44,738 nt of DNA, from positions 1 through 44,738 of the forward strand of contig CALZOU010000006.1 of the NCBI GenBank assembly GCA_945827805.1, read 5' to 3'. The stretch comes from an uncultured Lachnospiraceae bacterium (GTDB taxonomy: Bacteria; Bacillota; Clostridia; Lachnospirales; Lachnospiraceae). Made by a program: the position numbers and the translations under genes. Positions 35,820 through 36,393 of this stretch are shown here, piece by piece. Position 1 is the first letter of the stretch. Each line of letters begins with the position of its first letter. The notes under the pieces are model-generated. The model was not told where the DNA came from and ran no database searches. It saw only the letters and a list, made by a program, of their open reading frames with translations.

Positions 35820-36137
35820 TTATTTCTGTTTCATTTTGATATCAATGTACACACCAGCCGGCATTTCCAGTCTGCTCAGCGCATCTACAGTTTTCTGTGT
35901 AGGTGTGATGATATCGATCAGTCTTTTATGAGTTCTCTGCTCAAACTGCTCGCGGCTGTCTTTGTATTTGTGAACAGCACGAAGAATTGTAACTACCTCT
36001 TTCTTTGTCGGAAGGGGTACCGGACCACTCACTACAGATCCGTTCTTCTTTACAGTTTCGATGATTTTAGCTGCAGATGCATCAACCAGCTGATGATCAT
36101 AAGCTTTCAGTGTGATTCTCATTACTTGACTTGCCAT
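35820..36137 (-). CDS. rpsJ: 30S ribosomal protein S10
   Basis: [71 protein letters not shown]. Confidence 0.97.
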
Positions 36138-36358
36138 AAAAAAAGTCGCCTCCTTTTCGCTTTTTCGAGCGACAAGCGGTGACTGTACACTTTCCCGTGT
36201 GTGTCCTAAAAGGCTGCACACGTTGTTTCCATACTCTCAATGGACGTTGTAAGTTTTGTACAGTGACTTGTCGTCAGTTATCTTGAACTTGACATTCGCT
36301 CCACGGAAAACCTGTCTTTCGACAGCAACCTCACGCTTCATCGCTATCATGTCACAAC
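36138..36358 (-). promoter_or_regulatory. Structured 5' leader of the S10 operon
   Basis: Promoter-to-start distance about 220 nt; long-range complementary arms CGACAAG..ACTGTACA / TGTACAGT..CTTGTCG plus internal hairpins. Confidence 0.65.
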
Positions 36359-36364
36359 GTTTGC

Positions 36365-36393
36365 ATTATACAAGAAACCCCTCGCCTTGGCAA
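36365..36393 (-). promoter_or_regulatory. S10 operon promoter
   Basis: Minus strand TTGCCA - 17 nt - TATAAT. Confidence 0.8.

Follow-up and report, generated by a model that had tools for sequence, protein, structure and literature searches.

A probable autogenous switch in the S10-operon leader of a Lachnospiraceae bacterium, coupling the RF03136 aptamer to competing helices

How might the S10-operon leader of this gut bacterium turn its own operon off? The leader occupies positions 36358-36138 on the minus strand of the window (the whole stretch of DNA analysed here, 44,738 nucleotides), between a promoter-like site and rpsJ (S10; 35820-36137, ATG at 36137), which is followed by rplC, rplD, rplW, rplB, and rpsS according to the open reading frame translations. 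All features described below lie on the same strand. A consensus scan identified a predicted promoter, TTGCCA-17-TATAAT (36365-36393, 11/12 matches), as the sole strong site and detected no promoter-like site between the aptamer and rpsJ, placing the predicted start of the S10 transcript at about 36358. A start close to rpsJ, which the first-pass annotation had named as an argument against a leader switch, is therefore not predicted. The arrangement TTGCA..TATAAT recurs in relatives immediately 5′ of GTTGTGAC, and GUUGUGAC represents the expected 5′ end of the transcript near 36358. A terminator-like hairpin, AAACCCCTTGCCAAGGCGAGGGGTTTCTT (36400-36372), includes TTGCCA, the −35 hexamer of the predicted promoter, and a similar overlap was seen at loci L072 and L086. 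Rfam matches to Leu_leader and Phe_leader in this upstream region scored far below their gathering thresholds and had picked up a terminator-like hairpin. A short ORF across the aptamer (ATG at about 36350, noticed by eye) was also discarded, as relatives do not preserve it: their hairpin loops move it out of frame or interrupt it (L002, for example).

The Firmicutes S10 leader was reportedly first described by Yao et al. in 2007. An Rfam search, as the first-pass annotation had proposed, revealed that the 5′ half of the leader (36268-36349) is a full-length match (model positions 1-81) to RF03136, S10-Clostridia, with a score of 85.2 bits against a gathering score of 35.1. The score thus exceeds the curated cut-off over the full model, and the element lies upstream of rpsJ and the S10 operon, with the hairpin and core sequence of the model. 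The statement that this leader matches no described Firmicutes motif consequently fails for 36349-36268; the part downstream is absent from Rfam 15. Likewise, the upstream hairpin CTGTC-GAAA-GACAG (36312-36325) exists as annotated and is a variable hairpin within an RF03136 stem, not an element outside the described motif. In the source paper (Eckert & Weinberg 2020, PMC7247131), RF03136 extends to Clostridia an S10 r-leader that had been known from Firmicutes before, and binding of an operon-encoded r-protein with consequent repression is a prediction there too. The literature that we found describes neither a mechanism nor a proven ligand for this family. RF03136 matches were found in 183/200 genomes of the family and in 92/116, 81/148, and 66/150 genomes of the order, class, and phylum samples, respectively. 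No other Rfam 15 family was detected in 20 diverse leaders that were scanned, and the window contains no match to another S10 leader. It does contain a second known r-protein leader, RF03140 (S4-Clostridia; 21726-21676, minus strand, 45.1 bits against a gathering score of 37.5). In genome G200 of the same genus, RF03136 occurs twice in tandem about 300 bases apart (L034/L035) with a run of N between the copies, which may be a scaffolding artefact. Mimicry of 23S rRNA by the aptamer was rejected, as the resemblance was not significant.

The RF03136 model stops at 36268 and thus lacks the helices P0′, P1, P4, and T of the present leader. In addition, its last helix, UGUC/GACA, is offset by 3 nt from the pairing preferred by most leaders, UGUCA.GUU/AACUGACG (P3, 36272-36294). 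The shifted register had a probability of 0.86 in the window, versus 0.14 for the Rfam register, and was ahead in 123/145 distinct cases; those favouring the Rfam register were mainly GUUAGGAAAC-type Lachnospiraceae. This majority register is compatible with P1, whereas the Rfam register overlaps it.

We fetched about 270 leaders from relatives and examined the region downstream of the aptamer. Across the window's order, conservation was strong from the aptamer end to the ATG, with the consensus CGACAAG(N)TCACTGTAC - variable hairpins - GACACACACGG - NNNN - GTGTACAGTCACC(A/G)CTTGTCGTACT - loop - AGTGCGAAAAGGAGGCGACTTTTTTTATG. Judged by this conservation, the roughly 130 nt 3′ of RF03136 are a conserved, uncatalogued expression platform, which appears undescribed in Rfam 15 and in the literature examined, attached to an aptamer that is a member of a known family. 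Whole-leader stability was not unusual (z −0.85). The annotated CCAT/ATGG and CGTGTG/CACACG hairpins are indeed present. The former corresponds to UCCAU/AUGGA inside P1 (36228-36244), which appears in the minimum free energy (MFE) fold and differs in sequence and length among relatives. The latter (36222-36217/36201-36196) competes with a sequence-conserved MCGG-loop hairpin candidate that we designate P4, ACAC-ACGGGAAA-GUGU (36187-36202). The GAMACACMCGG motif of P4 is retained in the rest of the class and at loci that lack the aptamer. Just 5′ of rpsJ at L072, L082, L084, L086, and L114, there is no recognisable aptamer, yet GACACACMCGG..GUGU is kept, and for this reason P4 may be a separate protein site.

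The central helix of the platform, P1, is formed by a 5′ strand, CGACAAG-UC-ACUGUACA (36257-36273), and a 3′ strand, UGUACAGU-CACCG-CUUGUCG (36170-36189). The first-pass annotation had described it as an interrupted 15-bp helix of CGACAAG-ACTGTACA (36273-36267 and 36264-36257) with TGTACAGT-CTTGTCG (36189-36182 and 36176-36170), and the sequences and coordinates that it quoted are all correct. When its 104-nt domain was folded, P1 appeared in the MFE structure (−32.3 kcal/mol, z −3.2; 0/200 shuffles did as well), and it appeared again in that of the whole leader (−60.7 kcal/mol). Ungapped column counts in the order-wide alignment had little power since the strands are too conserved and compensations involve indels; we therefore used strand-swap tests, in which the duplex energy of a leader's own strands is compared with that of strands exchanged between leaders. 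Among 47 distinct 5′ strands, the mean energy of P1 was −18.3 kcal/mol for own strands versus −13.0 ± 0.44 kcal/mol for permuted ones, and none of 20,000 permutations reached as low a value. The 29 most divergent leaders gave −18.1 versus −12.1 ± 0.59; the permutation ignores the tree, and this divergent set covers many families. P1 is kept despite wholly different sequence in L188 (CGACUUUAAGAC), L191 (CGACAGGGUUUCUAUAC), and the Oscillospiraceae-type loci L106-L113 and L195. By these comparisons, P1 coevolves across Clostridia.

The second helix, T, hides the rpsJ Shine–Dalgarno (SD) sequence. Its 5′ strand, AGUC-A-CC-G-CUU (36184-36174), lies within the P1 3′ strand, and its 3′ strand, AGG-A-GG-C-GACU (36144-36154), contains the SD sequence AGGAGG (36154-36149). 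Between them stands an apical hairpin, UCGCU/AGCGA (36157-36172), which reads UCGUACU/AGUGCGA in most relatives and displayed two-sided changes in 3/3 counted pairs. In 29 aligned modules, 94.5% of the cells of T were paired, compared with 46-61% for slid versions, and six pairs showed two-sided changes (14 cells); none of 500 shuffles reached any of five measures. Strand swapping also favoured own strands (z −2.6, p 0.0055). The SD was paired with the T partner strand in the MFE fold of 155/161 distinct modules, versus 52% when the partner was shuffled, and relatives such as L115 (AGUAACC/GGUUGCU), L134, and L146 form an equivalent hairpin with other letters. From this comparison of relatives, the conserved SD-pairing strand is AGUCACCGCUU. 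Next to the SD, 171/178 leaders carry a mismatch at one position, 36180/36148 (mostly A.C, A.G, or G.A), which we interpret as if it limited the stability of T. Unguided RNAalifold on the 3′ module did not find T and returned a weak hairpin between the SD and the U-tract instead.

P1 and T are mutually exclusive and nearly equal in computed energy. For the window's leader, the MFE of −60.7 kcal/mol belongs to the P1 state, and the T state, at −59.6, costs 1.1 kcal/mol; across the order (157 leaders), the difference E(P1)−E(T) had a median of −0.3 kcal/mol (interquartile range −2.6 to 2.0). When the growing transcript was folded, the probability of P1 was 0.88-0.96 before the SD emerged; at 214 nt, P1 had fallen to 0.41 with T at 0.60, and at full length the values were 0.72 and 0.16. 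Such near-isoenergy, in these computed values, is how a bistable switch would be expected to look.

A third helix, P0′, links the aptamer to this pair. Here the GUCAC segment of the P1 5′ strand (36267-36263) is the potential partner of GUGAC (36355-36351), located at the predicted transcript's 5′ end; their pairing would close the aptamer and, by overlap, exclude P1. The strand-swap z-score was −5.4 over all leaders; it was −2.7 when the rest of the class was taken by itself and a weak −1.8 within the order. Leaders with GUGRY at their 5′ end tended also to carry RUCAY in the P1 strand: the correlation, phi 0.757, exceeded the null maximum of 0.479 (0/3000) obtained by simulating the second trait on an rpsJ tree in 3000 runs. 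P0′ would explain why the two bases UC are conserved although unpaired in P1. Folding of the window's leader gave P0′ a probability near 0 without ligand, and when P0′ was forced (−56.5 kcal/mol), the resulting fold contained T unprompted. An alternative helix, P0, between the 5′ end and the 5′ strand of P3 was unsupported (z −0.8). The earlier proposal of mutually exclusive helices is therefore well supported for P1 against the SD helix; it had missed P0′ and overlooked that U7 might be the tail of a terminator.

Together, these results make it probable, though well short of certain, that a complete autogenous switch of the S10 operon resides in this leader, with the RF03136 aptamer coupled to a three-way helix competition. 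P1, T, P0′, and their overlaps rest on comparative evidence; the ligand, the direction of control, and termination are inferred. In the free RNA, P1 would form as computed and tie up AGUCACCGCUU, leaving the rpsJ SD open (ON). An r-protein of the operon would then bind, with P0′ (GUGAC/GUCAC) holding the aptamer closed, and P1 could no longer form, as coevolution and overlap suggest. AGUCACCGCUU would pair with the SD strand to give T, as computed with P0′ imposed; T would hide the SD and block translation of rpsJ (OFF). Since U7 directly follows T, the two would probably also end transcription just 5′ of the AUG. Our guess, by analogy, is that the ligand is L4, which in E. coli controls both transcription, through an intrinsic terminator, and translation via a structured S10 leader (PMC10931766). 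The operon and the principle of structured-leader control are shared, but terminator and operator are separate in E. coli, whereas one hairpin would serve here. Proteomics in C. difficile did not support a role for L4 (PMC3933415). The order of elements resembles riboswitch expression platforms, in which an aptamer closing helix, an antisequestor or antiterminator, and a sequestor or terminator overlap in series; unlike these, the present leader presumably has a protein ligand, and its U-tract ends at the start codon. In another Clostridia lineage, Peptostreptococcaceae, an rpsJ motif, RLC-47-1, is likewise an rpsJ 5′-UTR and ribosomal leader candidate, known from 87 representatives in three genera (PMC11109978).

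The full form of this proposal is tentative, and we give it somewhat less than an even chance: a relay from P0′ to P1 to T, with a single hairpin that both sequesters the SD and acts as an intrinsic terminator with its end at the start codon, a roughly 130-nt platform inserted between an SD-abutting aptamer (the arrangement of other Firmicutes classes) and the rpsJ SD, and a terminator that, in the order of the window, was subsequently relocated to the AUG from its place within P1. Its evolutionary part draws on the distribution of the U7 tract (36138-36144), which lies between T and the AUG and is kept in the order. A U-tract directly precedes the AUG in 172/181 leaders of the order versus 1/65 in the rest of the class, and a terminator-like hairpin lies inside the P1 loop in 8/181 leaders of the order and in the leader interior in 31/65 of the rest of the class, by a strict criterion that probably makes these counts lower bounds. 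From this complementary pattern, T seems to have assumed the terminator function within the order of the window, although the pattern is a single order-versus-rest contrast and is confounded with phylogeny. Some rest-of-class loci pair the SD/start-codon region with other sequences (B-region × SD swap, z −3.9). At L233, L241, L245, L248, and L255 in the rest of the class, inspection by eye suggested a candidate antiterminator: the P3 3′ strand, AACCGGGC, complements GCCCAGGUU, which forms the 5′ strand of the leader terminator. Within the phylum's other classes (L259-L278), RF03136-like aptamers directly abut the rpsJ SD (GGGCGA-AGGAGG) without room for a platform. This suggests simple occlusion in those classes, and the Clostridia platform accordingly looks like an insertion, although its polarity is our reading of the comparison.

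The strongest competitor, which we consider unlikely, is a switch acting on translation only, in which P1 and T control the SD and U7 terminates nothing, serving as a spacer or pairing weakly with AAGGAG. The T hairpin has −15.8 kcal/mol (z −2.5) with U7 directly after it, but mismatches lie near its base; because this base comprises just 4 bp followed by a mismatch, T may be a poor terminator, and a simple terminator scan of the window did not list it. RNAalifold paired the U-tract with AAGGAG, and the aptamer of other classes adjoins the SD with no terminator. Against this stand the retention of U7 in the order, even though it lengthens the spacer between SD and AUG, its absence where a terminator sits inside the P1 loop, and the lack of covariation in the U-tract/AAGGAG hairpin, which we rejected for that reason.

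Still less probable, in our estimate, is action of the aptamer alone, the bound protein blocking ribosome loading or recruiting a nuclease while P1 and T serve as mRNA-stability or assembly structures without ligand-dependent switching. Occlusion can suffice outside the class, where the aptamer abuts the SD, but here the aptamer ends more than 100 nt from it, and without switching it is difficult to account for mutually exclusive helices that both coevolve and, in 157 leaders, remain close in energy. Finally, the first-pass version, in which GTCGC/GCGAC (36173-36169 with 36149-36145) competes with P1 to hide the SD, is scarcely credible: this pairing can form in the window, with an RNAduplex energy (−9.8) equal to that of T for the window strands, but its covariation was at shuffle level (246/500 and 418/500 shuffles as high), its strand swap gave z −0.3, it is absent in L088, L098, L115, L134, and others that retain T, and forcing it cost 4.3 kcal/mol, compared with the 1.1 for T. 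The core idea of a switch between a free and a sequestered rpsJ SD is thus retained, through coevolution and computed energies, with AGUCACCGCUU replacing the strand originally named.

For the preferred reading, in which P0′, P1, and T compete, the helix set predicts, mutation by mutation, whether the S10 operon would be repressed or derepressed, making Gram-positive S10-operon control directly testable, and it shows how the Rfam RF03136 model could be extended. The comparison across Firmicutes suggests that one aptamer has three outputs, namely occlusion beside the SD, a leader terminator, and a terminator-plus-SD hairpin. The two-state switch beyond the aptamer shows how the RF03136 sensor probably turns the operon off.
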